A stretch of DNA of 64,000 nucleotides. Origin: Engelhardtia mirabilis (GTDB taxonomy: Bacteria; Planctomycetota; UBA1135; GCA-002686595). Position 1 is the first letter of the stretch; each line of letters starts with the position of its first letter. The stretch lies in assembly GCA_007751255.1 (NCBI GenBank), contig CP036296.1, positions 6,014,001-6,078,000 on the forward strand. Reading direction: 5' to 3'. Shown here in pieces: positions 8,288 to 37,578 of this stretch. The notes under the pieces were generated by a model. It saw nothing but the letters and a program-made list of their open reading frames with translations, was not told the origin of the DNA and ran no database searches. The translations under genes and the position numbers were made by a program.

Positions 8288-9892
8288 TCACCGCTCGCCG
8301 GTCGGCGCCTCGGCCGGCTCCGGTGCGAGCAGCACGCTCTCCGAGCGCGAGCCGGCGTAGGCTTCGACGACGATCTGAGCCGGCTGGTGTCCGCGCGCCG
8401 TGAGCGTCAGGGTCGTGCGCGCCGCCGGCAGGTTGCCGAGCATCGCCGCGGGCACTGCTTGCGCCAGGCCACCGCCGGCGAACCAGCGGCGCCGGTCGAC
8501 CTCCGCCTCCCACGCGACGCGAATCGATGGGTGGACCTCGGCGGCGTTGAGCAGCTCGAGCTCGAAGCGGACGTAGCCCGGCAGGGCCAGCTCGTGGACC
8601 TCGTCGAGGCGGTGGTCGAGGCGCGTCATGAAGCGCATCGGGTAGACCTCGAGCTCGACGTCGCCGCGCGGGACGTCCTCGAAGACCCACTCGACCCGGC
8701 GACTGCCGGCGCGGGGCAGGAACAGGGGCGGACCCATGACCGAGCGCGAATCGAGGAGCTCGGAGTAGATCCGCAGCCGCACCCGATCGAGGGGCCAGGA
8801 TCCGGGCACGTCGAGCGCCACGTGCAGGTCGCCGAAGATGTCGTCGGGATGCGCGTCCAACGAGAGCCGCAGGGGCAGCCAGCCGCCCGCGGCCAGCTCG
8901 CCCCGGGTGCGGATCAGCTCGAGGTCGTCCACCAGCAGGGCGGCTTCGATCGTCCCCGCCGGGAAGGACGGAAGATCGATCCTCCCCACCTGGGCGGGGC
9001 CCTCCCAGACGGTCTCGCCGCCGCTCGTCAGTCGCAGCACCGAGTTCGCGGGCAGGTCGATCCCCGCGCCCAGGGCGAGCTCGAGTTCGAGGTCGCCGCC
9101 CCGTTCGAGCCGGACCGACACCTGATTGCGCGCGAGAGACGAAACGACGGCGCTCCCGAAGGCGTAGCCCGGCGCGCGCGCGAAGAGCGTCTGCTGCGGC
9201 CCGGCACCGACTCGCTCGCCCGACAGCTCGATCTCCATCGGCGAAGTGCCGCCCTCGACCAGGCGCACCAGGTCACCGCGCGCCGGGCCCGGGTGGCCGA
9301 AGGGATCGGTCCCTGGCCGCGAGCTGACCTCCACGTCGCTCAGGTGCGCGCCGGTCCTGGCGTCCAGGGCCGAGAGCCGCGTCGTGGATTCGCGCACCAC
9401 GATCACCTGCACCCGATCCCCCGGCGGCCAAGCTGCGCGCGGTGACGGCGAGAGGACTCGGCACGGCCCGCCGTCGATCCGCGGCCGGCGGAAGGTCAGG
9501 TTGCCGCGCGAGGGCAGGTCGATACGGAACTGCCCGGCGCGCACGTCGACCTCACGCACCCATTCGACCCCGTCGCTGACGAGCAGCAGCTCGATCGTCC
9601 CACTCGCTTCGTCGAACGCCATGGGCCGCTCGCCCAACACGGCGATCGAACCCGTCAGAGTCAGGCCCGCGACCGCGCGCGCCGATTCAGCCGAGTCGAG
9701 CTCGTGGGCCGCGACCATGACCGGCGCGACGGACGGCGTCGCGTGCGCCGCGGGGGCACGGGGGCTCGCCGCGTCGATGGGCTCCGCGACGTCGCGCAGC
9801 AGGAACCACGGCACCGCGGCGAGCAGGGCCAGGACACCGCACAGGGCGAGGCTGCGCCATGCGGACCCACCGCGCACCAGGTCCGGACTCAC
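8288..9892 (-). CDS. Single-pass beta-rich surface protein, paralog 1 of 5
   Basis: 534 residues from GTG at 9892, which has GGAGG six bases upstream; the frame is open to an earlier GTG at 9958 with only Arg-rich sequence between. A transmembrane signal anchor follows (about residues 12-31, SLALCGVLALLAAVPWFLL). The remainder is a chain of beta-sandwich-like segments. It carries the family marks found in four neighbours: a TG motif (ALDARTGAHLSDVEV), the segment ARAPGYAFGSAV and the glycine turn VRLERGGDLELEL. The domains resemble carboxypeptidase regulatory or prealbumin-like modules only in pattern. The body should lie outside the membrane. No catalytic residues are visible. Function unknown. 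Confidence 0.75.
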   Translation of the reverse strand: MSPDLVRGGSAWRSLALCGVLALLAAVPWFLLRDVAEPIDAASPRAPAAHATPSVAPVMVAAHELDSAESARAVAGLTLTGSIAVLGERPMAFDEASGTIELLLVSDGVEWVREVDVRAGQFRIDLPSRGNLTFRRPRIDGGPCRVLSPSPRAAWPPGDRVQVIVVRESTTRLSALDARTGAHLSDVEVSSRPGTDPFGHPGPARGDLVRLVEGGTSPMEIELSGERVGAGPQQTLFARAPGYAFGSAVVSSLARNQVSVRLERGGDLELELALGAGIDLPANSVLRLTSGGETVWEGPAQVGRIDLPSFPAGTIEAALLVDDLELIRTRGELAAGGWLPLRLSLDAHPDDIFGDLHVALDVPGSWPLDRVRLRIYSELLDSRSVMGPPLFLPRAGSRRVEWVFEDVPRGDVELEVYPMRFMTRLDHRLDEVHELALPGYVRFELELLNAAEVHPSIRVAWEAEVDRRRWFAGGGLAQAVPAAMLGNLPAARTTLTLTARGHQPAQIVVEAYAGSRSESVLLAPEPAEAPTGER

Positions 9893-10048: not shown

Positions 10049-11950
10049 TCAGGGTCGGCGCTCGAGCGGCACTTCGATGCGGTTGATCCCCGCCGCCAGC
10101 TCGACGATCTGGTCGTTCACCGGTAGGTAGGCCGGCGCCGGAACGATGCCGATTCGATAGCGCCCGGGCTCCGACAGGCCGATGTGGTACACGCCCGATC
10201 TGGACCGGCAGAAGTCGGAGCGCCCCTCGCCGTCGACGGCGGCCGCCGACACGTCGGTGCCGGGCATGGACCTCGCGATTCGGCGGCCGTCGACCGCGAA
10301 CACGATCTGGAGCTCGGTGGGCGGCAGGAATCGCGCCACCAGCCGCTCGGCGCCCGGTGGACAGTCGACGGTGGCGGTCCGACGGGAGATCTGAGGCGAG
10401 CCGATCGTGATGTTCAGTGCGCCGGGAGCGACCTGGACCTGGTAGAGCCCGGGTCCGACCCGCGCGAAGGATCGCGATCGGTGCGGCACCAGCGCGGAGC
10501 CCCGCGACGAGCTGACCGCGATCGTCGGGGCGTCCAGTTGCCGACCCGTCTGCTCGTCGACGCACTCGATCAGGACCGACTCCGGCGGCGGAAGCTCGAG
10601 GGCGACGGTCGTCGGGCCGCTGACCTGGAAGCTCTCGATCCGGGCCAGCTCGTGCAGTTGGAGCGCGTAGGCGCCGGCGCGCAGGGATCCGAGGGAGCCG
10701 GTGAAGTGGTTGTCCTCACTCAGATCGGACGTCTCCAGGCGTACCTGGTCGACGCGGATGAAGCGCTCGCCCCCCAGGTTCCGGTAGACCGAAGCGCTGA
10801 CCCTGCGCCGCTCGGGCCAGCCCCGGGCCGTCAGCTCCACGGCGACCGGATGCTCGGCCAGCAGGGAGTCGAACTCGCCCAGGTCCAAGTCGAACCGGGT
10901 CACCTGGCCCGCTCGCACGCTCAACTCGCGAGCGAGCATCGCGTCCTTCGTCCGCGGGGACTGCCCGGCCGAGATCCGCAGGCTGTAATCCCCCACCGCA
11001 AGACCGTCCAGGCGCAGCTCGCCGCCGCTCGAGAGGGCCTCCGAAGCAATCGAGGAACCGCCGGCCGCGTCCGCCAGGCTCAGGCTCACGCGCTGGGTCG
11101 ACTCCCCGACGACGCGTACCCGCAGGTCCCCGCCGGGCTCGAGCTCGACCCGCTGCTGACCAGAGGACCCGAGCCACACGCATCGCCAAGCGTGGTCCCT
11201 GGCCCTGACCCAGGCCGCGAAGGTCGTCTGGCCCGGAAACAGCCGCGGCAGCCGACCGAGGGTCAACGGAGAGCGCGCGCCCCGCGCCAGCCAGCGCCCG
11301 GGCGAAAACCGTTCCGGTCGAGGGACGCCCGACGGCAGGGCGTTCCCGCGCTCCAGGACGATGATCTCCACGCCATCCAAGTGCTCGCCGGTCGCGCGCG
11401 AGCACACCTCGATCGACTCGGCCCCGCGGTGGTCGACGCGCACCGTCGCGAAGGGACCCGCGACCTCCTCGGCGCGCCCCTCGCCCACGACGGGCACGCG
11501 CACCCCGTCCATCCAGGCGCCGTCGACCCGCAGGCTTTGCAGCGCGCCGACGACGCCCGGGATCGTGAAGAGGCCACCGCGAAAGGCCAGCGAGTCGTGC
11601 TGGACGCGTGTCTCGGAGACCGCCACGAGGCTCAGGGTCCCGTCGCCGTCGCGCACCACGCCCCCCTCCTCCATCACCAGCACCAGGCCGGCGAAGCCCG
11701 CGTCGCCGGCCGGCCGCCGAGCACCGGGCTCGCTCGCCTGAGGCTCTCTTGGCGCCAAGGCCTGGGTCGTCGGCGCGACCGGGCTCGTCAGCTCCGCCTG
11801 CCCGGCGACCGGTGTCGGGACTGCCGCCGCGCGGGCGACCGCCGGCGCTTGCCCTGCGGCATCGCCTCGCGGCACCCCGAGCAGGTAGATCCACGTCGCG
11901 GCCGCCAGTACCAGGGTCGAGAGCGCGACAGCCGTCGTGCGCAGCTTCAT
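10049..11950 (-). CDS. Single-pass beta-rich surface protein, paralog 2 of 5
   Basis: 633 residues. N-terminal anchor TTAVALSTLVLAAATWIYLL, then a low-complexity Ala/Pro/Gln linker to about residue 80, then beta-rich domains. Family marks: CSRATGEHLDGVEIIVLERG, VRARDHAWRCVWLG and VELEPGGDLRVRVVGES, in the same order and spacing as in the other copies. The C-terminus ends with a strand pattern (GRYRIGIVPAPAYLPVNDQI) that resembles the ends of the 14750, 16696 and 18643 genes. It is followed after 156 bp by paralog 1 on the same strand, and preceded by the acetylesterase 66 bp upstream. No enzymatic motif is seen. Confidence 0.77.
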   Translation of the reverse strand: MKLRTTAVALSTLVLAAATWIYLLGVPRGDAAGQAPAVARAAAVPTPVAGQAELTSPVAPTTQALAPREPQASEPGARRPAGDAGFAGLVLVMEEGGVVRDGDGTLSLVAVSETRVQHDSLAFRGGLFTIPGVVGALQSLRVDGAWMDGVRVPVVGEGRAEEVAGPFATVRVDHRGAESIEVCSRATGEHLDGVEIIVLERGNALPSGVPRPERFSPGRWLARGARSPLTLGRLPRLFPGQTTFAAWVRARDHAWRCVWLGSSGQQRVELEPGGDLRVRVVGESTQRVSLSLADAAGGSSIASEALSSGGELRLDGLAVGDYSLRISAGQSPRTKDAMLARELSVRAGQVTRFDLDLGEFDSLLAEHPVAVELTARGWPERRRVSASVYRNLGGERFIRVDQVRLETSDLSEDNHFTGSLGSLRAGAYALQLHELARIESFQVSGPTTVALELPPPESVLIECVDEQTGRQLDAPTIAVSSSRGSALVPHRSRSFARVGPGLYQVQVAPGALNITIGSPQISRRTATVDCPPGAERLVARFLPPTELQIVFAVDGRRIARSMPGTDVSAAAVDGEGRSDFCRSRSGVYHIGLSEPGRYRIGIVPAPAYLPVNDQIVELAAGINRIEVPLERRP

Positions 11951-13549: not shown

Positions 13550-13595
13550 CGTGGAGTCCGGCGATCGGTGGCCTCGCATGGTATGGAACCGGTGC
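13550..13595. promoter_or_regulatory. Divergent promoter region of acetylesterase and sialidase
   Basis: Only 46 bp separate the two start codons, so the two transcripts must start within or very near this interval and are likely controlled together. I see no clear operator repeat or classical -35/-10 pair. Confidence 0.4.
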
Positions 13596-14756
13596 ATGGG
13601 AACCGCCACGACGATCTTGCTCCTCACCGCCTTGGCCGGCGCCGCCCAGGACTCCGACGTACCCGTTGCGGAGCCGACGACGCAGGACCTCTTCACGTCC
13701 GGCGTGGCCGGCTACCACACCTACCGCATCCCCGCCCTGGTCACGACCGCGAGCGGCGCGCTGCTCGCCTTCTGCGAGGGACGGCGGACGGGCAGCGCCG
13801 ACTCGGGCGACATCGACCTGCTGCTGCGGCGCTCCACCGATCGCGGGCGCACCTGGTCGGACGTGCAGGTCCTCTGGGACGACGGCACCAACGTCTGCGG
13901 CAACCCCTGCCCGGTCGTGGATCGCGAGAGCGGTGCGATCACCCTCTTGATGACCTGGAGCGACGGCGACGTGCCCGAGTCGGACATCGCCGTGGGCCAT
14001 GGAACCGACTCGAAGCGCGTGTTCCTGAGTCGCTCGACCGACGACGGGCTCACCTGGAGCGAGCCGGCCGACATCACGCCGAGTGTGAAGCCCGTGGAGT
14101 GGAGCTGGTACGTCGCGGGCCCAGGTGCAGGGATCCAGATGGAGCGCGGCGAGCACGCCGGCCGCCTGGTCGTGCCCTGCGACCACAAGACACCCGGTCC
14201 CGAGGGCACGCGCTTCGAGAGCCACGTCATCCTGTCCGACGACGGCGGCCTCACCTGGCGCGCCGGCGGCAGCGCGCCGAGGGACGCGGTCAACGAGTGC
14301 GAGGTGGCGGAGCTGGAGGACGGGAGCCTGCTGCTCAACATGCGGAACTACGACCGCAGCGTGCGCGCGCGCCAGACCTGCACCAGCCGCGACGGGGGCG
14401 AGAGCTGGGGCGATCAGCGCCACGACGAGGCGCTGGTCGAGCCTGTCTGCCAAGCCAGCCTGCGCCGCCTGCGTTGGCGCGCGGGCGACGCGCCCGGTGT
14501 GCTCCTGTTCTCGAACCCTGCGAGTACCGAGGCACGCCACCGACTGACGGTCCGGGCCAGCTACGACGATTGCCGGACCTGGGCCCACTCGCGCCTGCTC
14601 TACGAGGGCAGCAGCGCCTACTCGTGCCTGACCGCCCTCGACGACGGCACGATCGGCTGCTTCTTTGAAGCCGACGACTACGGCCGCCTGGTCTTCGCGC
14701 GCTTCGGCCTCGACTGGGTGCAGGCGGAAGCCGAGGCGTCCCGGCGCGATCAGTAG
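13596..14756 (+). CDS. Exo-alpha-sialidase (neuraminidase), exported
   Basis: 386 residues. Hydrolyses terminal sialic acid from glycans. After a signal peptide (TILLLTALAGAAQ) the sialidase propeller begins with the arginine motif YHTYRIPAL (Arg44) and shows four Asp-boxes: STDRGRTW (80-87), STDDGLTW, SDDGGLTW and SRDGGESW. A catalytic-type Glu region (NECEVAEL), a second arginine block (LNMRNYDRSVR) and the Tyr-containing GSSAYSCL near the C-terminus complete the expected site. Length is that of a single-domain bacterial sialidase. The start at 13596 is preferred over 13551 because it begins the signal peptide. Divergent from the acetylesterase; the 3' end overlaps the end of the opposite gene by 7 bp. 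Confidence 0.92.
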   Translation: MGTATTILLLTALAGAAQDSDVPVAEPTTQDLFTSGVAGYHTYRIPALVTTASGALLAFCEGRRTGSADSGDIDLLLRRSTDRGRTWSDVQVLWDDGTNVCGNPCPVVDRESGAITLLMTWSDGDVPESDIAVGHGTDSKRVFLSRSTDDGLTWSEPADITPSVKPVEWSWYVAGPGAGIQMERGEHAGRLVVPCDHKTPGPEGTRFESHVILSDDGGLTWRAGGSAPRDAVNECEVAELEDGSLLLNMRNYDRSVRARQTCTSRDGGESWGDQRHDEALVEPVCQASLRRLRWRAGDAPGVLLFSNPASTEARHRLTVRASYDDCRTWAHSRLLYEGSSAYSCLTALDDGTIGCFFEADDYGRLVFARFGLDWVQAEAEASRRDQ

Positions 14757-16699
14757 GAGCGCACCAGGTCGATCACCGTCTCCGACACCGTCTCGGCCAA
14801 GATCTCGACCTCGATCGGTTCGATCGACTCGTAGCCGTCGAGGTCGGGGAGGTACAGCCAGTAGGACCCCGGCTGGCCGACAAAGTAGATGTAGGCCCCG
14901 TCGTCGCGGTGCCCCGTGACGTTGCCGGTTGCGCCCCCGACGGCGATCAGGCTCGGAGTCCACAGTCCGGGGAAGCCGATCGGTTGGCCCTGGTCCCGCA
15001 GGGTGACCCGCACGCCGCAGGGTCGTGGCAGCTCGAGCTCGACGGCATTCGGGCCGGAAACCAACTCGACCTGCTCGACCAGTCCGGGGTGCAGGGCCGA
15101 CGGCCGCACGACCACACGCACCGGACCGGCGGCGACACGTGCTCGGAACTCTCCGGGCGCGGTGCGAACCGCCTCGACCGCGACCCTGCAGCGGCCGTCG
15201 GCACCGACGGCGCCGACGTTCACGCTGGGGACGTCGATCGCTCCCCCATCCGGCTCGGCGACGCAACGCAAGCGAAGCTCGGCGGGCGGTGGGAGTCGGA
15301 GCGTCTGCTCGCCAGACTGCTCGACGATCAGGTCCGCGCTGTAGCCCAGATCGACGAACTCCGCTCGATAGCGGCCGGGCCTCTTGCCCTCGACCTGTGC
15401 GCGACCGCGGAGCAGGCCGTCCTCGGCAGACAGTGGGACGTCGAGCCAGGTGTAGGGCTCGGCGGCGGTGGCCGGCTCGCCGGAGACGAGCAGCACCTCC
15501 AGGCGCTTCAGCTCCCAGACCGGGTCCAACTCGAGCACCAGGCTCAGGTCGAACTCGGCAACCACCGCCTCCGCCGCCGGCTGGACGTCGATGCGGATCG
15601 TCGTCGTCTCGCCGCGGGCGACGGGGGCGGCGGCGCCGCCCACCAACCGCTCGCGCTTCGACTCGCCCCCGGCGCGCAGCTCGACGCGGTAGTCGCCCAG
15701 GGGCACGTGGTCGAACACGAGGGTCTGCGGAACGGCGCAGGCCCGCTCGAGAAGGCGCACGAACCGCTGCCCGCGGTAGAGCAGCAGGACGCCCTCGAAG
15801 GGCTCGGAGGGGGTTGCAAGGTCGACGCACAAGCCTCCTCCAGGCTCGAGCTCGACCACGTGGCGCTCGGTGTCCAGGTCCAGCTCGACGAGGCGCCAGG
15901 CGTGGTCTCGCGCCGCGATGAACAGGCGCAGACGCCGCTCCCCCCGGCTGTCCCGAACGGCCGCGCCGAGCCGCACCGGCGAGGACCCGTCCCGCAGGAC
16001 CTCACGGGTTCGCCAGTCGGACAGCGGCAGTGCATCCGCGCCACCGGCCGACGGCATGGCACCTACCAGCAACACGACCCCGTCCAGGTGCTCGCCGGTC
16101 GCCGCGTCGCGCACCTCGAGCCAGTGCTCGGGCTCCACTTGCAGGCGCAGCTCCACGGTCCCGCCGGCCTCCAATGCCGCCTGGAGGTCGGGCAGCGGCT
16201 CGACCAGCCGCGCCTCGCGGCCCTCGGCGCGGCCGAAGCGCAGGGTCGCGTCGGCGATCGTCCCGCCGCTCTCCCAGCGCGCCTGACCGCCGCGGAAGGG
16301 CATCGAGCCCTCGATCCACTCCGCGACGTCTTCTTCCTCTTCGAAGAAGTCCAAGTAGTCGAAGAGCAGCTCCCCGTCCGCGTCGAAGCGCTCGGTGCCG
16401 TCGAGCTCGACCACGACCACGCGCAAGCTGACGTGGTAGCGCGGGTCGGACTCGGCGGCGGGGACGACTTCGGTTGCGGTGTTGCCGGAAGCGTCGGCGG
16501 GAGTGATCGGAGCCGCGCTGCGCTCGACCGGTCGCGGCGCGCCGGCGGCAACCAAGTCAGGGGACCCGGCCTGTTCGATCTGCGCCGCGTGCGCATTGGG
16601 AGCGCTCGCGACCGGGGCTTCGACCTCGCCGCGCGAGAAGAGCCACAGGGCGATCATGGCCACGATTGCCAAGACCGCTGCGATGCCGACGCCCTTCAT
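14750..16699 (-). CDS. Single-pass beta-rich surface protein, paralog 3 of 5
   Basis: 649 residues. Anchor at residues 3-21 (GVGIAAVLAIVAMIALWLF), then an Ala/Pro linker and beta domains. The family block reads EVRDAATGEHLDGVVLLVG, then SPVRLG, FIAARDHAWRLVELD and VELEPGGGLCVDL. A strongly acidic loop (LDFFEEEEDVAEW) near residue 110 is private to this copy. The start codon ATG at 16699 overlaps the TGA of the upstream paralog (ATGA) and has GGAGG seven to eleven bases upstream, so it is translationally coupled and last in a three-gene operon. Function unknown; the C-terminal segment (YWLYLPDLDGYESIEPIEV) closely matches the end of the 18643 gene. Confidence 0.8.
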   Translation of the reverse strand: MKGVGIAAVLAIVAMIALWLFSRGEVEAPVASAPNAHAAQIEQAGSPDLVAAGAPRPVERSAAPITPADASGNTATEVVPAAESDPRYHVSLRVVVVELDGTERFDADGELLFDYLDFFEEEEDVAEWIEGSMPFRGGQARWESGGTIADATLRFGRAEGREARLVEPLPDLQAALEAGGTVELRLQVEPEHWLEVRDAATGEHLDGVVLLVGAMPSAGGADALPLSDWRTREVLRDGSSPVRLGAAVRDSRGERRLRLFIAARDHAWRLVELDLDTERHVVELEPGGGLCVDLATPSEPFEGVLLLYRGQRFVRLLERACAVPQTLVFDHVPLGDYRVELRAGGESKRERLVGGAAAPVARGETTTIRIDVQPAAEAVVAEFDLSLVLELDPVWELKRLEVLLVSGEPATAAEPYTWLDVPLSAEDGLLRGRAQVEGKRPGRYRAEFVDLGYSADLIVEQSGEQTLRLPPPAELRLRCVAEPDGGAIDVPSVNVGAVGADGRCRVAVEAVRTAPGEFRARVAAGPVRVVVRPSALHPGLVEQVELVSGPNAVELELPRPCGVRVTLRDQGQPIGFPGLWTPSLIAVGGATGNVTGHRDDGAYIYFVGQPGSYWLYLPDLDGYESIEPIEVEILAETVSETVIDLVRSY

Positions 16700-18636
16700 C
16701 GCCCACCCTCCGCGCGCGCCAGCTCGACGATCAGGTCGACGAACTCGCCCCGGGCGACGACGACTGCACGCGGGCGCGGCGCGTCGTAGCCCTCGGCCCC
16801 CGCGACTTGCACGCGATAGCGCCCCGTCCCGAGCACGTCGCACTCGACCGACGCGGCGCCGGGCTCGGCGGACACCAGCATCGGGGCGTCGTCGAAGTCG
16901 AGTGGCGACAGGCTCACCGACCACTGGGCCGGTCCCAGGTCGAGCCCGCTAGCCGCGTCGCGCAGCCGCACCCGCACCCCATGCCGCGGCGGGATCGTGA
17001 ATCGCAGGCGGTGCTCGCCGGGCGCGAGGTCGTAGGCGCGCTCGATCTTGCGACCGTCGACGACCGCTCGGATCGCGATCTGGCCCGCGGGCGCGGTGAA
17101 GCGCAGCACGCTCGGCTCGTCCGTGTGCTGCAGGGCGGCCGCCGGCGCGAAGGCGTGGCTGCCGTCCGTTTCGGTGAACGCCCGGCCCAGGGCGGGGCCG
17201 AGCCAGTAGAGCACCGGCGTGTGTGGCAGCGCAGCGCCGAGGTCGTCGGTCACCTCGACCTCGACCCGGGCCGGCTCGGGGACGCGCAGGGTCGTCGTGC
17301 CGGCACCGGTGACGTCGAAGGTCTGCGCCCAACGCAGGTCGCGCAGGTTCGCGCGCCACAGGCCCGCTGGCTGGGCCCCCAGGTCGTAGTGCAGCCAACT
17401 CCGACCCGGTCCCGACTCGACCACTGCGGTCGGTCGCAGCTCGAGCCCGATCGGTCGCGCTCGGTCGCCGCCATCCAGGGCGAAGCAGCCGGGAAGCTCG
17501 TCCCCGCTCCAGGGCGCGGGCACTTCGATCTCGACCTGCAGCTCGAAGCGCGGAGCCTCGCGCTGCTCGAGCTCCGCGGGCGCGACGGACAGGCGCAGCG
17601 GCGTCTCGCCAGCGCCCACGACCTCGCCCCGCGCCGAGGCCAGCACGCGCGAGTTCCCGTAGAGGTCGTCCAGCTCGAGGCTGGCGACGACCTCGCCCGC
17701 GGGGACGCCGCTGAATGGAATGACGGCGTCGAGCCCCACGACCTCGTCGACGATCCGCGTCGCTGGGTCGCCGGCCGCGATCCGCAGGTGCAGCTCGTCG
17801 GTTCGGCCCAGGCCGTGCAGCTCGACGCGGATCGAGCCACCGGGCGCGAGCTCGACCAGGCGCTCGCCCCCGGCGAAGGGGTCGAGCACCACGGGCTGCC
17901 AGGCGTACCCCGCGCCGCCCACGAACCAATTCGCCGCTCGGCCGGGGAGGATCTCGTCGGCGACCGCGGGCGTGACCTCGACCGGCGAGGGCCGGCCCAG
18001 GGTCACGGGTTCGATCAAGCCGTCGGCGCGGCCGGGGTGGTGGGCGCTACCGACCGAGCGCACCACGTCGACCGATTCAACCTGCAGCCCGGTTGCGCGG
18101 TCGCGGACCACGAGCGTCGCCGCCACGGGCGCGCGGTAGACCAGACGCACCCGGCCGTCGTCGGGGAAGCGCCGCGCCTCGGTCCCCACTGCCCGCACCG
18201 CGCTGTCTTCGAGCTTCGCGTCCACGAAGCGCAGCTCTGCCGGTGCGATCCAACCCGTCGGGACCAACAGTTCGAACTGACCGCCGGCGACCACGGGGAA
18301 GTAGGTCCGAAAGCCCTTGGTCTCGATCATCTGCACGGCGACCACGCCCGAGGGCCGCTCGTCGATCGAGCCGTCGCCGCGGATCAGGGTCACCGTCCCC
18401 GTGAGGACGGCGATCTCCGTCGAGTCGGAGGTCGGCGCCTTCGAGCTCGCCGCGCGGCGGTCCGCGGGCTCGGCACCGACCACCGGCCGCAGGCCCGCGC
18501 CCGAGCGCCCGGCCTCGCCATCGACCTCCACCCTCGCCGGGTGGGCGGGTGCGGCTGGCCCGACGCGCCGCGAGGCGGCCCAGAGCGCGAGGCCCAAGCC
18601 GGCGGCGAGAGCGACGATGACGAGGGGCGACTTCAC
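16696..18636 (-). CDS. Single-pass beta-rich surface protein, paralog 4 of 5
   Basis: 646 residues from a GTG start 6 bp after the stop of the upstream paralog. Anchor LVIVALAAGLGLALWAA at residues 5-21. Family block: VRDRATGLQVESVDVVRSVG, the SPVEV segment, VGGAGYAWQPVVLDP and VELAPGGSIRVELHG. The C-terminal domain ends GRYRVQVAGAEGYDAPRPRAV, corresponding to the same region in the neighbours. Middle gene of the three-gene operon, overlapping the next gene by 4 bp. Its length is equal to that of paralog 5, while the sequences differ widely, so the duplication is old. No catalytic residues, repeats of Cys or ligand motif can be seen. Confidence 0.8.
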   Translation of the reverse strand: MKSPLVIVALAAGLGLALWAASRRVGPAAPAHPARVEVDGEAGRSGAGLRPVVGAEPADRRAASSKAPTSDSTEIAVLTGTVTLIRGDGSIDERPSGVVAVQMIETKGFRTYFPVVAGGQFELLVPTGWIAPAELRFVDAKLEDSAVRAVGTEARRFPDDGRVRLVYRAPVAATLVVRDRATGLQVESVDVVRSVGSAHHPGRADGLIEPVTLGRPSPVEVTPAVADEILPGRAANWFVGGAGYAWQPVVLDPFAGGERLVELAPGGSIRVELHGLGRTDELHLRIAAGDPATRIVDEVVGLDAVIPFSGVPAGEVVASLELDDLYGNSRVLASARGEVVGAGETPLRLSVAPAELEQREAPRFELQVEIEVPAPWSGDELPGCFALDGGDRARPIGLELRPTAVVESGPGRSWLHYDLGAQPAGLWRANLRDLRWAQTFDVTGAGTTTLRVPEPARVEVEVTDDLGAALPHTPVLYWLGPALGRAFTETDGSHAFAPAAALQHTDEPSVLRFTAPAGQIAIRAVVDGRKIERAYDLAPGEHRLRFTIPPRHGVRVRLRDAASGLDLGPAQWSVSLSPLDFDDAPMLVSAEPGAASVECDVLGTGRYRVQVAGAEGYDAPRPRAVVVARGEFVDLIVELARAEGGR

Positions 18637-18642
18637 TGCAGC

Positions 18643-20583
18643 TCAGTCCTTCGGCTCGACCTGGATGTCGACGTCGACCATCTCGCCCAGCGCGATCTGG
18701 ACCTCGACCGGCTCGACCGGCTTGTAGCCGTTGATATCGGGAATGGTCACGCGGAAGCGTCCGGGCTCGTCCACGAGCATCGCGAGAGCCGCCCCTTCCA
18801 TGTAGCCAGCGCCTCCGACGTCGCCGTCGCCGCCGTCGTCCGGCAGACGCTCGAGCTTCGGTATCCAACTCCAGTCCGTGGGGTTCACCACCACCTCGCC
18901 GTGCAGCGCGCGCAGCCGAATCCCCTGGCGGGGCGGCAATCGATACTCGAGCCGCTGCTCGCCGGGAACTACCGTGAAGTGCTCCAAATCGAACCCGCGG
19001 TCGGCCGCGAAGACCGAGATCGCGATCTCCCCCACTGGCGCGACGAAGCGGTATTGCCCCGGTTCGTCGAGGGCCTCGGTGCTCTCGTGGGACCAGCCGT
19101 CGCTCGGGCCCGTGTAGACCGAGTACCAGCTGACGCCGACACCTTCGGGCGCGGCGCCGGTCAGCTCGTCCACGACCTCGAGCAGCACGGTGCCGGGCTC
19201 GGGCGCGTGTATCGAGTAGAGGCCGGAGTGGTCGACGACGATACCGCTGCGCCATCCGAGCGACGGGAACTCCAGAAACCAGTCGCCGCCGAGCTCCTGC
19301 TCCAGCTCGAAGCTGAAGCGACGCAGGCCGGAATTCAGCTCGTCGCCGTCGGACGAGGTGAGGTCCCAATCACTCTCCTCGCCACTGGGCGAGTCGATCA
19401 GCTCGCCGCTTACGCGCAGCTCGCTCCGGGCCCAGGCCGCGGGAACGTCGACCTGCAGGGCGAAGTCGAAGCGCGGCGCCTCCTCGCCGGCCGCGGCGTC
19501 GACGATGACCTCGAGCTGGAGTGGCATTCCGGGCACGAGCTGACCCTGGGCCGAGCCGAAGACGCGCGGGCTGGTGAACCACTCGCCGCGCTGCACCCGC
19601 GCGCTGACGCTCCCGGCCTTCAAGCCCGAGAGCCGATGGCGCCCGTCGCCGCGGATCAACTCCTCCGTCAGGAACCCCGCCCCCGTGTCCGCGTAGACGG
19701 CCAGGTACAGCCGCTCCTGCGCGGGCATGCCCGTCACGTCGACGACCACCTCGCCGCCGGGAACGAGTTCGACGACGCGTCCCGCGCCGGCGATGTCCAC
19801 GCCGACCGGCTCCCAAGCGTAGCCGTCCGCGCGTACGAGCCAGTTGCTGCGGCCCGCGGCTCGCTCCCAGGCGGGCAGATCCACCTGCGGCACCCGCACG
19901 GGTGAGACCGCGCCCTGCACGATGAGTCTCGGGCGCAGGCCTGGATGGGACCGGTACTCCTCGCCCTCGGCGATGTCGACGCCTGCCAGGGGAACGCCGG
20001 TCGCGGCGTCGCGCACCTCGAGTAGAAAGGGTTGCACGAGTCGCAAGCGGAAGACCAGCTCCCGGTCCGCAGGCAGCTGGTAGTCCTGGTCTTCGATCGC
20101 CATCGCGAGCAGCTCGTCGAAGTTCCCGCTGCGCAGCTCGATGCGGTCCGCCCCCGCAGCGTCGCCGCCCAGGGGCAGTTCGAACGCTCCGTCGGCGACC
20201 TCGACCTCGCTGCTCTGGCCGCGATTCCCGGTCCAGAAGTTCACGTCCAAGCGGCCCGTCGCGGTGGTCGAGATCGAGCCGTCATCCAGCTCGAGCTCGA
20301 CGCGGCCACGGAGCGCAGTTCCAACAGGTTCAGCCAACGCCGTCGCGCCGTCCGCCTCCGCCGCCTCCGCGGTGGCCGTCTCGACCGACACCCGCTCCTC
20401 GGCCGCCTCGCTCGAGGACACCGGAGCGGACAACTCGCTCGGACCTTCCCGCGCCTGCTCGGACGGTGCAGCAGGGGGCTTCGAGGCCGAATCGACCTGG
20501 TGATCGCCGCTGGTCGAGATCCAGACCACGCAGGCCGAGATGGCGAGGAGCAGCAGCAGGAAGATCCAGGCGGCGCGATTCAC
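18643..20583 (-). CDS. Single-pass beta-rich surface protein, paralog 5 of 5
   Basis: 646 residues from GTG at 20583, which has GGAG six bases upstream; a TTG at 20601 is a weaker alternative. Anchor AWIFLLLLLAISACVVWI, then a long Ser/Ala/Glu linker (about residues 30-100), then beta domains. Family block: EVRDAATGVPLAGVDIAEGE, SPVRVPQVDLPAWERAAG, VRADGYAWEPVGVDIAG and VELVPGGEVVVDVTG. The end reads GRFRVTIPDINGYKPVEPVEV. First gene of the operon that includes the 16696 and 14750 paralogs, with its promoter in the 110-bp divergent region shared with the PhzF-like gene. Secreted, acidic, function unknown. Confidence 0.8.
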   Translation of the reverse strand: MNRAAWIFLLLLLAISACVVWISTSGDHQVDSASKPPAAPSEQAREGPSELSAPVSSSEAAEERVSVETATAEAAEADGATALAEPVGTALRGRVELELDDGSISTTATGRLDVNFWTGNRGQSSEVEVADGAFELPLGGDAAGADRIELRSGNFDELLAMAIEDQDYQLPADRELVFRLRLVQPFLLEVRDAATGVPLAGVDIAEGEEYRSHPGLRPRLIVQGAVSPVRVPQVDLPAWERAAGRSNWLVRADGYAWEPVGVDIAGAGRVVELVPGGEVVVDVTGMPAQERLYLAVYADTGAGFLTEELIRGDGRHRLSGLKAGSVSARVQRGEWFTSPRVFGSAQGQLVPGMPLQLEVIVDAAAGEEAPRFDFALQVDVPAAWARSELRVSGELIDSPSGEESDWDLTSSDGDELNSGLRRFSFELEQELGGDWFLEFPSLGWRSGIVVDHSGLYSIHAPEPGTVLLEVVDELTGAAPEGVGVSWYSVYTGPSDGWSHESTEALDEPGQYRFVAPVGEIAISVFAADRGFDLEHFTVVPGEQRLEYRLPPRQGIRLRALHGEVVVNPTDWSWIPKLERLPDDGGDGDVGGAGYMEGAALAMLVDEPGRFRVTIPDINGYKPVEPVEVQIALGEMVDVDIQVEPKD

Positions 20584-25468: not shown

Positions 25469-25798
25469 TCAGTCGACGAGTAGGTTGACCCGGAAGCCGA
25501 TCGTCCCGCCCTGGTTCAGGACCACGTCCGGCAGGCCGTCGTCGGTGACTTCGGCCGCGACGACGATGCCGATCTGGCCGGCAGAGAGCAACGACTCGGG
25601 CGAGCGGAACCGCCACGACACGGGGTTCTCGAACAGGTCGGCCCGCTCGAGCCCGATCGGGTGGCCGCCGGCGTCGAGGGTGGCGGCCGAGACGAAGGCC
25701 CCGCCTGCGGCGCTCGGTCGACATCCGAAGCCACGCGAGCTGGGTCCGCGCCCCACGGGTCGCGGCCCCAGCTCGCGGGGCGCGGGCCCGTCGTTCAA
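25469..25798 (-). pseudogene. Possible C-terminal gene fragment after the sigma fusion
   Basis: A 109-codon frame opens with TTG at 25798 inside the TGA of the sigma-fusion gene (TTGA) and ends at 25469. Only the last 75 or so codons (from about GAFVSAATLDAGGHPIGLER to FRVNLLVD) show the strong third-position bias of real genes; the first 30 lie in an inverted repeat and translate to Pro/Arg/Gly-rich sequence. No good start exists in the coding-like part. It may be the remnant of a longer gene cut by the inverted repeat, or a small coupled gene. Function unknown. Confidence 0.4.
25735..25776. terminator. Imperfect inverted repeat after the sigma-fusion gene
   Basis: Two 20-bp arms (25735-25754 and 25757-25776) pair at 18 positions with a very short loop; the stem core is GCGAGCTGGG/CCCAGCTCGC-like. 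It lies about 20 bp past the stop of the sigma-fusion gene and could terminate its transcript. No T-tract follows. Confidence 0.5.
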
Positions 25799-28485
25799 CC
25801 GCCCGCTTCGCTATCGACGGCGTCGAGAGTGACCTCGAGCGGCGCGCCGCGCTCACCCGCTCGCACTTCGACGTCGAGGGTCCGCGAGAGGTGACCCTCC
25901 GCGTCGAAGCGCAGTTGGTGCCGGCCCGGCGGCAGCAGCACGGCGCGATCGAGGGACGCAGGAAGATTGCCGTTCAGGTAGCGGATGGAGCGCACCCCCG
26001 CGAACTGGGCCTCGACGGTGACGGCGGCATCGCGGTCGCCGTCCACGCGCACGACCTTGGCCTCGATCGGCTGTCCGCCCGAGCCACGGACGGTGACCGG
26101 AAGCTCTCCAGCGGCCTCGGTCGGCAGCCTCAGGCGAGTCGTCTCGCCGTCGACGATGGTCAGCTCGGCGCCGCGGAACAGGGTCGTCGGCTGCACGGCG
26201 TTGATCGGCGTGAACTCCAGGGTCCAGCTCCGTGCGGGGAGGTCTTCGATGCGGTGCTCGCCCCCTGGCGGGAAGACGAACTTCCCCGAGCGCCGCAGTC
26301 CTGCGGCTTCGTCCAGGTGATAGATGAACTCGAGGCCGACGAGGTCGAGCCCCTCGGGCGCGCAGAGCACCAGGTCTCCGTGGGGACCGCCGGGCAGGTC
26401 GAGCTGGTACTCGAGGGTCTCCCCCACCGCGGGAGCCGTAAGGCTGAACGTGAAGTCGTGCCCGGCGTCGCTGGTCACGTGCAACTCGACCGGTCGCTCG
26501 GGGGTGACGACGATCGGCAGGGCGCTGCGCTGGAACGGATCCCAATCGCGCAGGAACGGCTCGCCGTTCTCGGGCCGGACCTCCACCCGCAAGGCGCGCG
26601 CCGCAGTGAAACCCGCAGGCACCGTCAGTCGCACGCGCGCCGCCCGGTCGAGGATCTGCACCTCGTCCGCGCTGGCGACCACGTCGAGCGGCTCGGGCTG
26701 CAGCTCACCCACGCTCACGTAGACGGTGATCGAATAGAGCCTCGGCGCCATGCCCAGGAGCTCGAAGCGTCCGTCCTCCACGACGGCGTTGGCGCAGTGG
26801 ATGTGCTCGAAGGCCCCGTCGATCCAATCCAGCTGCAGCAACTGATTGCCGACGGAGAGCTGGAAGTTGTCCTTGGCGCCGTCGAGGCGGCCGACCACCA
26901 CCGTGCCCTGGGGCTGGAACTCGTCGCCGCTGCGCGCGATCCCGGTGATCGACTCACCGCGCCCGAGCGCCACGTCGCCCAGCTCGAGCGCCGCTCCCGG
27001 CAGGAGCTCGACGATGCGCGTCGCCGGGCGCCGCTTCCACGCGGCCGAGAGCAGCGCGTAGCGCCCGGCGCGCTCGACCGTCAGGCGAAGCCGTCCGTCG
27101 TCGCCGCTCTGGACCTTGACCACCGCCTTCCCCACCGGCGCGTCCGAGCCCGCGGGAAAGTCGAACAGGGCGGCGAAGTGCTGACCGAGCGGATCGCCGA
27201 GCTCGTCCACCAGCCGCAGATCGACGGCGGCCAGGGCCGTCGCGTCGAGCTGCGCCAGGAGCGTGCCCGGAGCTCCTTCCAGGTCGATCCGCACGGGTTC
27301 GGCGCGGTGCAGCCCGTGCTCGAGGGACACGACCAGGGACTGCGGCCTCGGCTCCGCTCCCATGAGCCCCTCCAATGGCGACTCGAAACGCGGCAGCCCG
27401 GAGGCGTCGACGGCCAACTCCAGCTCCAACGGCGTGCCGACCGGTTCGTCGCCGGATCGCCCCTGCACGCGGACCCGCGCCCCCGCAGCGGCGCTCCCAT
27501 CGAGCCCGACGACCGTGCCGACCAACCGCCAGGCCGACCCGTCCGCGAGCGCGGCACTCGGCACGGGCGCGCGGTCGGGAGTCGGGACCGATGTTTCGGC
27601 GAGGACCTGTAACCGATCGGCCTGCGCGCCGGTCCCGGGGGTGGCTGGGCGGGGGCTGGTGGGCCCGTGGGTTGGTGATTCGGACGGAGCCTGGGCCAGC
27701 AGGTCGTCCGCCGCCCCCTCGGCGCCCGGTCCGCTTCCCAAACCGATCCAAGCCGCGATGACAACCAACGCGACAGCGGCAAGGGCGACCAAGGCCTTGT
27801 TCACGATCAGAGCTCCGAGCAGGGGGGTTGCGGGGTGCGCGGCACCGAGGGCGGCGGCGCGGGCCTGGGCCAGGAGGGCTTCGCGGGCGACGCACTGCTC
27901 CAAGGCCCGGGCCTGGGGCGCGGGGGCCAGGCGCAGGGCCACGGCCGTGGCGATCGACGGCGGCAGGATTCGCCGCAACAGCTCGAGGCCGCGGTGGAGT
28001 TGCACGCGTACCGTGCCCGGCTCGCGGCCCAGGTGCGCGGCCACGGACGTGGGCGTCAGGCCTCCGAGCACGGCGCCTTCGACCACCGCCCGGTAGCGCT
28101 CGGGCAAGCGGGCGACCGCCCGCCCCACCAGCTCGCGCAGCTCCCTCGCGGCAACCACCTCGGTCGGGTCGACGGCCCGCTCTTCATCCAGCCGCGCCGG
28201 ATCGGGCCGGCGCGACTCGCCCCGCCGCATGCGCGCCGCGTGGTTGGCCATCAAGCCCACCAGCCAGGGGGTCACCGGACGCGCGGCCTCGTAGCGCTCG
28301 GCGCGCCGGATCGCCGTCAGGAAGGTGGCCTGGACCAGGTCGTCGGCCGCCTCGGCGCCGGGTCCCAGACGCGCGGCCACGCGGACCAGCTCGGGTGACA
28401 GGGCGTCGTGGAGAGCGCCCAGCGCGTCCACATCACCCTGGTCCCGATAGCGCAGGAACAGCCGATCCAGGTCCCGATCACCCAT
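25795..28485 (-). CDS. ECF sigma factor fused to transmembrane helix and large beta-rich extracytoplasmic region
   Basis: 896 residues from ATG 28485 (GGAGG six bases upstream; a GTG at 28500 is less likely). Residues about 8-90 are sigma region 2 (DDLVQATFLTAIRRAERYE, TPWLVGLMANHAARM) and about 118-172 region 4 with its helix-turn-helix (LTPTSVAAHLGREPGTVRVQ). A basic/Ala spacer leads to one transmembrane helix at about 229-249 (NKALVALAAVALVVIAAWIG), then a Ser/Pro/Thr linker and some 580 residues of beta-sandwich-like segments. The exported part resembles the five paralogs near 8-20 kb (compare IVELLPGAALELGDV). The layout would tether a sigma factor to the membrane with a sensor outside. 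No anti-sigma gene is adjacent. Function of the exported part unknown. Confidence 0.85.
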   Translation of the reverse strand: MGDRDLDRLFLRYRDQGDVDALGALHDALSPELVRVAARLGPGAEAADDLVQATFLTAIRRAERYEAARPVTPWLVGLMANHAARMRRGESRRPDPARLDEERAVDPTEVVAARELRELVGRAVARLPERYRAVVEGAVLGGLTPTSVAAHLGREPGTVRVQLHRGLELLRRILPPSIATAVALRLAPAPQARALEQCVAREALLAQARAAALGAAHPATPLLGALIVNKALVALAAVALVVIAAWIGLGSGPGAEGAADDLLAQAPSESPTHGPTSPRPATPGTGAQADRLQVLAETSVPTPDRAPVPSAALADGSAWRLVGTVVGLDGSAAAGARVRVQGRSGDEPVGTPLELELAVDASGLPRFESPLEGLMGAEPRPQSLVVSLEHGLHRAEPVRIDLEGAPGTLLAQLDATALAAVDLRLVDELGDPLGQHFAALFDFPAGSDAPVGKAVVKVQSGDDGRLRLTVERAGRYALLSAAWKRRPATRIVELLPGAALELGDVALGRGESITGIARSGDEFQPQGTVVVGRLDGAKDNFQLSVGNQLLQLDWIDGAFEHIHCANAVVEDGRFELLGMAPRLYSITVYVSVGELQPEPLDVVASADEVQILDRAARVRLTVPAGFTAARALRVEVRPENGEPFLRDWDPFQRSALPIVVTPERPVELHVTSDAGHDFTFSLTAPAVGETLEYQLDLPGGPHGDLVLCAPEGLDLVGLEFIYHLDEAAGLRRSGKFVFPPGGEHRIEDLPARSWTLEFTPINAVQPTTLFRGAELTIVDGETTRLRLPTEAAGELPVTVRGSGGQPIEAKVVRVDGDRDAAVTVEAQFAGVRSIRYLNGNLPASLDRAVLLPPGRHQLRFDAEGHLSRTLDVEVRAGERGAPLEVTLDAVDSEAGG

Positions 28486-28550
28486 CGCACCCCTCCGCAC
28501 GGGAGGTGCATGGCGTTACGGCTGACGGACAGAAACCTGTCGTCCCTCGA

Positions 28551-34755: not shown

Positions 34756-37578
34756 CTACCCGTCGGAGCTCCGGGCCGCGAGCTCGGCCCAACGCGGATC
34801 GTCCCGCATCTCCGCGAGCTCGGTAGCCTCGTCCATCGACTCACCCAAGACGTAGCCGGCTCGGATCGCTGCATCCAAGTGCTCGAAGGCCCGATCCAGG
34901 TCGGCCGGGAGGACTTCACCGGCGCTCACCCGCAAGCGGGTGCAGTGCAGACTCGCCAACTCGTAGTCGACGCTCGCGTCGCCGCCGAGGTACTCGCGGG
35001 CTTCGCCCTCGACCTGCGCCAAGTTGACCTCCTCGCGGCCCATCAGGCGACAGTCCGCCAGGTCGAGCGTCGCCCGCCCACGCACGTAGCGCGCCATCGC
35101 GTTGTCGGGATCGCTCGCCAGGATCAGATCCCAACACTCCAGGCTCTCCGCCAAGGCCGCGGCTGCCTCGGCCGAGCGCCCCATGCCCATCAGCTGACTC
35201 GAGTGCATCCCGAGCGCCCGACCGAGGGTGTCCAAGTCGTCCAGCGTGCCGGAACTCGCGTGGGCAGCGCGAGCCAGGACGATCGCGTCGAGCTGTGCTT
35301 GCAGCGCCTCGTCCTCGCGCCCCAGGTAGGACAGCATCAGGCCCAGGTTCATGGTCAGCAGCAACTTGCTGGTGCGGACCCGCGCGTCGTAGGGGCGCTC
35401 GGCCAGGAACTGCTCGGTCAACTCCAATCCCCGCCGCGCATCGGCCACGCAGCCGGCCACGTCCTCGAACGACTGCGGCTGGCCGCTGGTCGCCACGAGC
35501 AACCCGATCAGAGCGCGTCGCGGCTCGGGCTCCTCGGGACGCTGCGCGACCTGCTGCTCGAACAGGGCCCGCACCCGCACCTCGAGCCGCGCCCCCCGCT
35601 CGGCGTCGCCGAAGCGAGTTTCGAGCGACTGCAGGTCGCTGAGCACATAGGACACGTCGCGGCCCAGCTGCCAGTCGCCCGGCGATTCCGCCAGCAGGTC
35701 GTCGAGCAAGCCCAGCGACTCTTCCAGGAGTGGCCGCGCCAGCTCGACCTCTCCCCGTCCCAGGTAGCGTCCGCCGCGGTGGCGTAGGACCAGGGCCAGG
35801 TCGGAGCTGAGCTCCGTGTTCTGCGGCTCCGCGCTCCGCGCACGACGCAGCAGTTCGATCGAGCGAGCCAAGTCCTCGTCCATCTCCGCGTTCCGCCCGA
35901 GCAACGCGAGCTGGGCCGCGCGACTGTTCAGCGCCACGCCCAGGTCCCAATCGACGCTCGTGCTCCCCCCGCGCTCTCCCAGAGCCTGGTAGGCCTCGAT
36001 CGACCGATCGAAGTGCACCAGGGCGTCCTGCGGTCGCCCGAGGATCACGACCACCTCGCCCAGCTCGCGCGCCAGTCGTGCGCGATTCGCCAGGGCCGCG
36101 GAGTCCTCCGAGAGCTGCGGCATCAGCGCCTCGAGGCGCGCCTGGGCATCGGCCAGGATCTGCTCCCGGACGCGCTCGACCCCGGGCACGCCGTCCAGAG
36201 ACTCGTGACCCACCTCGCGCACCAGCTCGACGATGGCCTCCACGGCCTGGTCGAGGTTCGCTTCGGCGCGCAGGCGCTGCTCCTCGGCGCGGGAGTAGAG
36301 CAGCCCGAGCCGCTCGTTCGCGATGCCGCGCTGGATCGCGAAGCCAGTCGGCACGCCGACGATGAGCAGCACGGCCAGGACTGCTGCGACCGCGCGCGCC
36401 GGATTGCGCTGGGCCCAGCGCCGCAGTCGCAACCCGGGCCCCGCGGGGCGGACGGTGATCGGACGCCGCCCCAGGAAGTTCTCCAGGTCCGCCGCCAGGG
36501 CCTGGGCACTCTGGTAGCGCCGCGCGGGGTCGCCGTCCATGGCGACCTGGCACACGACATCGATGTCCCGCGGCACGCTGGAGTTCACCGCGCGCACGGG
36601 CGCCCGGTCGCCGGCCAGGATGCGTTCGCGCAGCTCGACCGCACGCCCGCCCTCGAAGGGCGCGCGCAGGCAGAGCAGCTCGTAGAGCGTGACCCCCAAG
36701 CCGTAGACGTCCGAGCGTCGGTCCGCGACGCCACCCGAGACCTGCTCGGGCGCCATGTAGGGCAGCGAGCCCAGGATCGATCCCGAGCGCGTCAGGTCGT
36801 CGACCCAGTCCGAGCTCGAGAGGCCGAAGTCGAACAGCAGCGCGCGGCCGTCGGCCGTCAAGAGGATGTTGGAGGGCTTGAGGTCCCGGTGCAGCACGCC
36901 GCTCTTGTGGGCGTGTTCCACAGCGCGGGCGACCTCGGCGACGATGCGCGCGCAGGCGGCGGCCCAGGTCCCCGTGAAGAACGGTGACGCGGCGACCTCC
37001 ACTGCCCCGTGGCCGCGTCGATCGAGCGCGGCGCGCAGGGCAGAGGCCAGGTCGGCGGCCTCGAGCCGGGCAGGGTCCCGGCCCGCGAGCTCCGCCAACA
37101 CCTCGGCCAGGGTCAGGCCGATCACCCGCTCCATGGCCAGGTAGGGCGTGCCGCGCTCTTCGCCGAACGCGTAGACGGGCACGATCCCGGGGTGTTGGAG
37201 CTTGGCCACGACCTCGACCTCGCGGCGGAACCTGGCGCGGGCCTCGGGGAAGGCCAGCTGGTCGGGGCGGATCAACTTGAGCGCCACCTCGCGGTCGAGC
37301 GACTCCTGGCGGGCGCGGTAGACGATCCCCATGCCCCCGCCCCCGAGGGTGTCGAGGATCCGGAAGTCACCCAGCCGCTCGGGCACGTCCGGCTCGACTT
37401 CCGTGAGCAGGCCCGCGCGGGCCAGGGGCTCGATGCGGCGGCGCAGCTCCGGCGCCTGCTCGGGGTGGGCGGCAAGGAAGGCCTCGAGGCCGCCAGGGGC
37501 GCCGCTCTCGAGCAGCTCTAGGCACTCCAGCATGAGTTCCGAGACGCGGTCGAGGCCGGGCTTCGATCGATCAGCCAT
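34756..37578 (-). CDS. Transmembrane Ser/Thr protein kinase with C-terminal TPR-like region
   Basis: 940 residues. An N-terminal helical segment (about 1-70) precedes the kinase domain (about 72-365): glycine loop LGGGGMGIVYRA, VALKLI, catalytic loop HRDLKPSNILL, DFGLS, activation segment SLPYMAPEQ. One transmembrane helix follows near 395-415 (AAVLAVLLIVGVPTGFAI). The remaining 500 residues are helical, with Ala/Leu-rich repeats typical of TPR, and would lie outside the membrane. A 39-residue insert within the kinase lobe (after LTLAEVLAELAGRDPARLEA) is longer than usual. ATG 37578 chosen over GTG 37587 for spacing from GGAG. Divergent from an ECF sigma gene 43 bp away. Confidence 0.92.
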   Translation of the reverse strand: MADRSKPGLDRVSELMLECLELLESGAPGGLEAFLAAHPEQAPELRRRIEPLARAGLLTEVEPDVPERLGDFRILDTLGGGGMGIVYRARQESLDREVALKLIRPDQLAFPEARARFRREVEVVAKLQHPGIVPVYAFGEERGTPYLAMERVIGLTLAEVLAELAGRDPARLEAADLASALRAALDRRGHGAVEVAASPFFTGTWAAACARIVAEVARAVEHAHKSGVLHRDLKPSNILLTADGRALLFDFGLSSSDWVDDLTRSGSILGSLPYMAPEQVSGGVADRRSDVYGLGVTLYELLCLRAPFEGGRAVELRERILAGDRAPVRAVNSSVPRDIDVVCQVAMDGDPARRYQSAQALAADLENFLGRRPITVRPAGPGLRLRRWAQRNPARAVAAVLAVLLIVGVPTGFAIQRGIANERLGLLYSRAEEQRLRAEANLDQAVEAIVELVREVGHESLDGVPGVERVREQILADAQARLEALMPQLSEDSAALANRARLARELGEVVVILGRPQDALVHFDRSIEAYQALGERGGSTSVDWDLGVALNSRAAQLALLGRNAEMDEDLARSIELLRRARSAEPQNTELSSDLALVLRHRGGRYLGRGEVELARPLLEESLGLLDDLLAESPGDWQLGRDVSYVLSDLQSLETRFGDAERGARLEVRVRALFEQQVAQRPEEPEPRRALIGLLVATSGQPQSFEDVAGCVADARRGLELTEQFLAERPYDARVRTSKLLLTMNLGLMLSYLGREDEALQAQLDAIVLARAAHASSGTLDDLDTLGRALGMHSSQLMGMGRSAEAAAALAESLECWDLILASDPDNAMARYVRGRATLDLADCRLMGREEVNLAQVEGEAREYLGGDASVDYELASLHCTRLRVSAGEVLPADLDRAFEHLDAAIRAGYVLGESMDEATELAEMRDDPRWAELAARSSDG

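Follow-up and report, generated by a model that had tools for sequence, protein, structure and literature searches.

We analyzed a 64,000-nucleotide stretch of the Engelhardtia mirabilis genome (contig CP036296.1, positions 6,014,001 to 6,078,000 of the forward strand; hereafter the window, whose own numbering is used throughout) and found that one of its proteins, P0001, the product of the open reading frame (ORF) at 25795..28485 on the minus strand, is a member of a family of extracytoplasmic function (ECF) sigma factors that are tethered to the membrane in planctomycetes, with a membrane topology predicted from the sequence. For many members of this family, codon statistics show that a predicted second, in-frame translation start at the transmembrane (TM) segment, headed by its own Shine-Dalgarno (SD) sequence, is a selected feature of the DNA. 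With a second translation start at this position, the gene would make two proteins. We therefore consider it probable that P0001 is a tethered ECF sigma factor with a gene-within-gene start, yielding a long form with the sigma part, which would be released by cleavage, and a short, sigma-less sensor.

P0001 is encoded by a single uninterrupted frame of 896 codons plus a stop codon, whose ORF-wide average G+C content at the three codon positions is typical of coding sequence; translation more likely begins at the ATG at 28485-28483, which is preceded by an SD sequence. Pfam, hydropathy and a predicted structure agree with the first-pass annotation on the order of parts: ECF sigma regions 2 and 4 (sigma2 and sigma4), ~55 residues, one TM, a Ser/Pro/Thr-rich linker and ~580 beta-rich residues. 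By Pfam, sequence and fold, P0001 has sigma regions 2 and 4 only, as is characteristic of the ECF class. The closest solved relatives of its N-terminal part by sequence are ECF factors, e.g. R. sphaeroides SigE/RpoE and M. tuberculosis SigL, and the best structures in a fold comparison of the sigma part are likewise ECF sigma factors. The sole hydrophobic helix has its top window at residues 231-249 (mean Kyte-Doolittle hydropathy 2.75) and lies at residues 221-248 in the model; a phmmer search of the PDB gave no match for the juxtamembrane-TM segment. Beyond the linker, which ends at residue ~315, the model consists almost entirely of strands up to residue 889. Apart from sigma2, sigma4 and one beta domain, the model of the whole chain is poor (mean pLDDT 56.5, pTM 0.32).

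Relatives of P0001, designated family A, were called at a score of at least 112 with a hidden Markov model (HMM) of the sigma part alone, built from the sigma portions of fused proteins. At this threshold the discovery set contains 103 members among 206 unique ORFs. Three of the 103 are cut by contig ends and were left out, and in all 100 others a TM follows sigma4 at a distance of 27-71 residues. Below the threshold, 14 of 103 ORFs are also fused (one at 111.8, counted among the low scorers, and the rest mostly from a second sigma-TM family, family B), and the top score of plain, unfused sigma factors is 104.4. Another 84 members whose extension reaches 120 aa or more came from a later set, and 83 of them have a TM score above 1.4. 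Chance or artefact can be excluded for P0001 because all 100 usable discovery members keep the same order of parts, and since the one-chain architecture recurs across the phylum sample it is no sequencing error; a frameshift or sequencing join was also ruled out by the absence of a stop at the junction. As all members uncut by contig ends are fused, the fusion looks old. The arrangement of sensor, anchor and sigma factor in one chain, and its expected occurrence in other genomes, were therefore both borne out.

A search with P0001 gave matches in 61 of 61 genomes (60 relatives and its own), many of them plain ECF sigma factors. An alignment of the family (A1) gave matches at E<=1e-25 in 138 of 392 genomes sampled from the phylum, the weak ones including family B, and in 51 of 81 genomes of the taxonomic family. 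Family B has matches at E<=1e-30 in 83 of 121 genomes of the order; 3 of its 45 members have an extension shorter than 120 aa, and a TM was found in 41 of the other 42. Match counts per genome are lower bounds in these searches, with a limit of 15, 6, 31 and 21 scored candidates per genome in the sets of 61, 392, 81 and 121 genomes, respectively. The source genome has seven family-A members (eight matches minus one family-B gene) and 19 family-B matches (22, less three family-A genes), i.e. 26 candidate self-tethered sigma factors, among which the TM was checked in the seven and in part of the 19. Such a number of matches to both tethered-sigma families in one genome is striking. Two tandem arrays on one strand were also observed: four family-A fusions in the source genome at locus L060 (G000:C1:4804000-4819000), with an embedded SD in two of the four, and five at locus L217 (G029:C1:4029000-4048900), with an embedded SD in the first gene only.

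The junction of P0001 reads CTC GGA GCT CTG ATC GTG AAC AAG, in which an in-frame GGAG is followed after 8 nt by GTG (27816-27802). To evaluate such sites across the family, an anchor codon was chosen from the protein alone (a Met at most 10 residues before the TM, otherwise a Val followed by Lys or Arg), and expectations were derived from synonymous-codon shuffles with each gene's own codon usage. Among 177 members, an SD of at least 4 nt precedes 71 of 114 Met/Val anchors against 14.1 expected (p=2.8e-46), and one of at least 5 nt precedes 52 of them against 8.4 expected; after clustering at 75% nucleotide identity the former figure is 68 of 107 against 13.1. The commonest form, GGAGG followed by 7 nt, accounts for 40 of the 71 sites. 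In the discovery set, the SD is found at 26 of 45 Met anchors (5.2 expected) and 11 of 20 Val anchors (2.2 expected). The anchor rule was devised after the junction codons of the discovery set had been inspected, and the fair test is therefore the hold-out, 77 members with less than 85% nucleotide identity to the discovery set (two contig-cut ORFs were removed, and then from the 84 four at 85% identity or more, one with a low TM score and two redundant ones). Here the SD occurs at 34 of 49 anchors against 6.6 expected, comprising 19 of 26 Met anchors (3.5 expected) and 15 of 23 Val anchors (3.1 expected).

The signal is not just a matter of glycine conservation, because GGA is chosen for the Gly four codons ahead of the start in 62 of 67 cases (11.0 expected), as compared with ~10-18% at three conserved Gly columns of the sigma domain (16/168, 26/145 and 22/148); at Gly four before other internal Met codons GGA is used in 18 of 189. 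The first version of the test, which counted SD sequences anywhere in the junction segment of 100 members and is thereby diluted, gave 50, 31 and 8 members at SD lengths of at least 4, 5 and 6 nt versus 32.8, 11.8 and 2.3 expected, and eight control segments elsewhere in the ORFs had no excess at 5 nt or more like that of the junction. The 16S tail of the source genome has the canonical anti-SD, able to pair with the embedded SD. Family B has a weaker effect, with an SD of at least 4 nt at 7 of 26 Met/Val anchors before the TM against 1.2 expected (e.g. at loci L351, L374 and L372).

Several observations weigh against two products from one gene. By the anchor rule the feature is absent in 106 of 177 members, 63 of which lack a Met/Val anchor, and three of the seven family-A members of the source genome have no embedded SD. 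An in-frame SD at working distance before a start codon is beyond chance for the family as a whole, whereas P0001 alone is unremarkable (P 0.155 for an SD of at least 4 nt, about one in six by synonymous chance, with a GTG fraction of 0.47), so that its case rests on the family. Among all pairs with at least 55% amino acid identity in which either partner has an SD, both have it in 21 of 47, and on the sigma tree the feature is scattered, with 44 changes versus 55.5 in shuffles. The control segment at -150 is also high at SD lengths of at least 4 nt (47 versus 35.6 expected), although not at 5 nt (17 versus 15.5) or 6 nt (0 versus 0.9) and above. Lys and Arg residues around the TM indicate no family-wide topology (more inside than outside in 58 of the 177 members, more outside in 56, equal in 63). 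Finally, both the tethered sigma factor and the short sensor are predictions from sequence.

The patchiness on the tree and the limited sharing between pairs would suit an alternative in which the protein is a plain tethered sigma factor, like IutY or ECF52 (see below), with one product, and the SD and start codon at the junction, without present use, either are a relic of the ancestral fusion between a sigma gene and a signal-anchor gene or come from exchanging modules repeatedly with sigma-free sensor genes. It is also in keeping with this alternative that five sigma-free paralogs in the window begin at the TM with SD-like sequence (clear in three, weak in one, none in one). Against this stand the apparent age of the fusion and the strong divergence of synonymous sites between relatives: where two relatives have a homologous anchor and either of them has an SD, the SD is kept in both in 17 of 20 pairs, while third-base identity at fourfold sites in these pairs is 0.31-0.76 and, among the aligned sigma-domain Gly codons at which either partner uses GGA, it is common to both at only 7 of 88. 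A passive relic is unlikely in view of this persistence. (The 20 pairs were counted by hand, overlap and are thus non-independent, and a mislabelled row in which one partner had no anchor was left out.) Moreover, Met and Val differ at the anchor in 9 of the 17 pairs, always as ATG/GTG, and every Val behind an SD is encoded by GTG (26 of 26, 10.8 expected).

SD-like pausing inside ORFs has been proposed, and GGAGG immediately before the TM could serve as a pause site that slows the ribosome during handover of the TM to the membrane machinery, without initiation. Such a site is hardly likely here because Val is always GTG with an SD, as compared with the background frequency without one (8 of 17, 7.2 expected). 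It would also have no need of a start codon at fixed spacing, whereas a GGA Gly codon near the TM is followed four codons later by ATG or GTG in 66 of 138 cases, and another Gly codon in 8 of 164. RNA folding around the 71 embedded sites is weaker than in synonymous shuffles (z 0.80+-0.12, compared with -0.21 to 0.20 at five shifted control positions), and weak local RNA structure is usual at real translation starts; a less clear weakening at anchors without an SD (z 0.43+-0.20) counts against the dual-product reading. Pausing and passive inheritance were accordingly both rejected as the principal explanation. Most improbable of all is a reading with two products in which the sigma half has degenerated into a leader and function resides in the short exported protein alone: the short product is designed like stand-alone surface proteins, and an SD is commoner at embedded anchors (71 of 114) than at the approximate full-length starts (33 of 153, a control that covers 153 of the 177 members), but the sigma2/sigma4 core retains 8 invariant columns among 26 sequences, both sigma Pfam domains exceed the cut-off in P0001 and in all 10 relatives scanned, and the model of the sigma part matches ECF structures. 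Provided that the starts are called correctly, the difference in SD frequency may mean that the short form is better translated than the full-length form.

Proteins that unite a sigma factor, a TM and an outside domain are already known, and the one-protein signalling route put forward in the first-pass annotation is thus supported in its architecture and not new; the predicted embedded start at the TM is new. IutY of Pseudomonas putida (ECF243), a sigma/anti-sigma hybrid activated through Prc and RseP cleavage, likewise combines a sigma domain, a single TM and a periplasmic domain, as P0001 does by sequence (PMC5411451). Its periplasmic part, however, is an anti-sigma domain working with a TonB receptor, in contrast to the beta-rich, CarboxypepD_reg-like part of P0001, and a text search of that paper found no mention of an internal translation start (PMC5411451). 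Neither a FecR-like periplasmic domain nor any other anti-sigma domain was matched by Pfam in P0001 (E up to 1) or 10 relatives (E up to 0.001). A one-protein route has also been proposed for ECF48, ECF52 and ECF53, which share with P0001 a sigma part, TM, Pro-rich linker and extracytoplasmic module, with release by proteolysis proposed (PMC5826349, PMC8999054). ECF52 (SCO4117 of Streptomyces coelicolor) contains both a zinc-finger domain and a carbohydrate-binding module and is said to be confined to Actinobacteria (PMC5826349), whereas the P0001 family has another module and belongs to another phylum. Among the traits of ECF52, a TM followed by a Pro-rich linker is present in P0001, for which alone it was scored. 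A zinc anti-sigma domain embedded after sigma4 and before the TM was rejected, as the motif HxxxCxxC occurs in 0 of 177 juxtamembrane segments and Pfam gave no match. A C-terminal carbohydrate-binding module had no Pfam match in P0001 or the 10 relatives, where CarboxypepD_reg is found instead. ECF57 is likewise a planctomycete group with a long C-terminal extension, but one of WD40-like repeats proposed to mediate protein interaction (PMC8999054), and no WD40 match was obtained in P0001 or the 10 relatives.

In-frame genes within genes are further exemplified by McrB and Cas8/Cas11. Alternative in-frame starts that give N-terminally truncated proteoforms have been described for CheA, InfB, ClpB and MrcB (PMC11005335), and a text search of that paper found no mention of sigma factors. 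The truncation predicted for P0001 differs from these in that it would drop a whole transcription factor and leave a membrane sensor, and in that the site recurs across a widespread family. Searches of the open-access literature brought up no report of this family in planctomycetes, nor of a sigma factor with an embedded start, which is not a claim of absence from print.

The mechanism we propose for the dual-product gene is as follows. The sigma2-sigma4 part would be cytoplasmic and held at the membrane by the single TM, with the putative beta-rich sensor outside in the same chain, and the tethered sigma factor would be inactive until cleavage. From the second start, where the SD usually stands 7-8 nt before ATG or GTG and a signal-anchor sequence follows, a short sensor (669 aa in P0001) would be made with the same anchor and exported half. 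An outside signal would lead to a cut near the TM, e.g. by an RseP-type site-2 protease as in IutY, setting the sigma part free for RNA polymerase. Proteolytic release, also anticipated in the first-pass annotation, is plausible by analogy with IutY, and M50 site-2 protease genes are present in the source genome, although M50 matches occur in 14 of 14 control genomes as well. The short form might be the bulk surface protein, or else a partner or decoy that sets the number of responding sigma-bearing chains; this is the weakest step of the proposal.

The first-pass annotation had compared the exported half with the five sigma-free paralogs (Table 1). No BLASTP match between them was found at E<=0.01, although the P0001 C-terminus matches 8 other sigma-linked C-termini at this level, and a paralog HMM found none of the sigma-linked C-termini at E<=10. 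Profile-profile comparison gave a probability of 87% (local mode) or 97% (global mode) at only 7% identity. CarboxypepD_reg exceeds its cut-off in P0001 and in 8 of the 10 scanned relatives, several of which also have Ig-like matches, and below cut-off in three of the five paralogs. The model of one paralog is a chain of beta-sandwiches, with top matches mainly to bacterial surface and pilin proteins at low TM-scores. The exported half and the paralogs thus have a common design and perhaps a common fold, with sequence kinship remote at best. A sigma-linked and a sigma-free form of the sensor, as supposed in the first-pass annotation, may exist in a different way, as products of one and the same gene.

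Table 1. Features of the P0001 gene and its sigma-free paralogs in the window
Feature	Position	Strand	Basis or remark
P0001, full-length sigma-TM-exported fusion	25795..28485	-	ORF list, Pfam, hydropathy
Shine-Dalgarno GGAGG of full-length start	28492..28496	-	sequence upstream of ATG
ECF sigma region 2, residues 27-93	28207..28407	-	Pfam Sigma70_r2 2.2e-10; pLDDT mostly >90
ECF sigma region 4, residues 118-169	27979..28134	-	Pfam Sigma70_r4_2 7.8e-10; sequence and fold comparison
Juxtamembrane segment, residues 174-227	27805..27966	-	helical in model, low confidence; without zinc anti-sigma motif
Embedded Shine-Dalgarno GGAG	27813..27816	-	in frame: Gly codon GGA and next base
Embedded start codon GTG (predicted), Val228 of P0001	27802..27804	-	codon reading at junction
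Predicted short product, 669 aa, sigma-less signal-anchored sensor	25795..27804	-	same frame; predicted
Transmembrane helix, residues 231-249	27739..27795	-	hydropathy and model
Ser/Pro/Thr-rich linker, residues 250-315	27541..27738	-	low confidence, no structure in model
Exported beta-rich half (predicted), residues 316-896	25798..27540	-	mostly strands in model; low pLDDT except ~320-400
CarboxypepD_reg-like repeat, residues 850-887	25825..25938	-	Pfam 1.5e-8, over cut-off
Sigma-free paralog 1 of 5	8288..9892	-	signal anchor and beta repeats; start picked by coding score
Sigma-free paralog 2 of 5	10049..11950	-	without clear SD at chosen start
Sigma-free paralog 3 of 5	14750..16699	-	GGAGG...ATG, then TM
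Sigma-free paralog 4 of 5	16696..18636	-	GTG, then TM; weak SD
Sigma-free paralog 5 of 5	18643..20583	-	GGAG...GTG AAT CGC, then TM; start grammar as at P0001 embedded start

Two further observations concern neighbouring genes. Among the five paralogs, at 12017-13696 (-) and 13578-14756 (+), lie a SASA-type carbohydrate esterase recognized by Pfam and, beside it, a gene that presumably encodes a sialidase-like protein. Elsewhere in the window, a Ser/Thr kinase (34756-37533, minus strand) that has a TM and TPR-like repeats stands beside a separate, divergent ECF sigma factor (37622-38209, plus strand), a pair resembling the planctomycete ECF groups linked to kinases.

Most ECF sigma factors depend on separate anti-sigma proteins to hold them. 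Should the embedded start be functional, a single gene would encode a reporter together with its sigma-less twin, a layout known to us from no described sigma factor, and annotation of long ORFs would miss the short form. On balance, we lean towards the view that this large planctomycete family of membrane sigma factors is dual-coding in a considerable share of its members, and that the ratio of tethered to sigma-less chains, set by the internal ribosome-binding site, may tune how strongly a signal is passed on to transcription.

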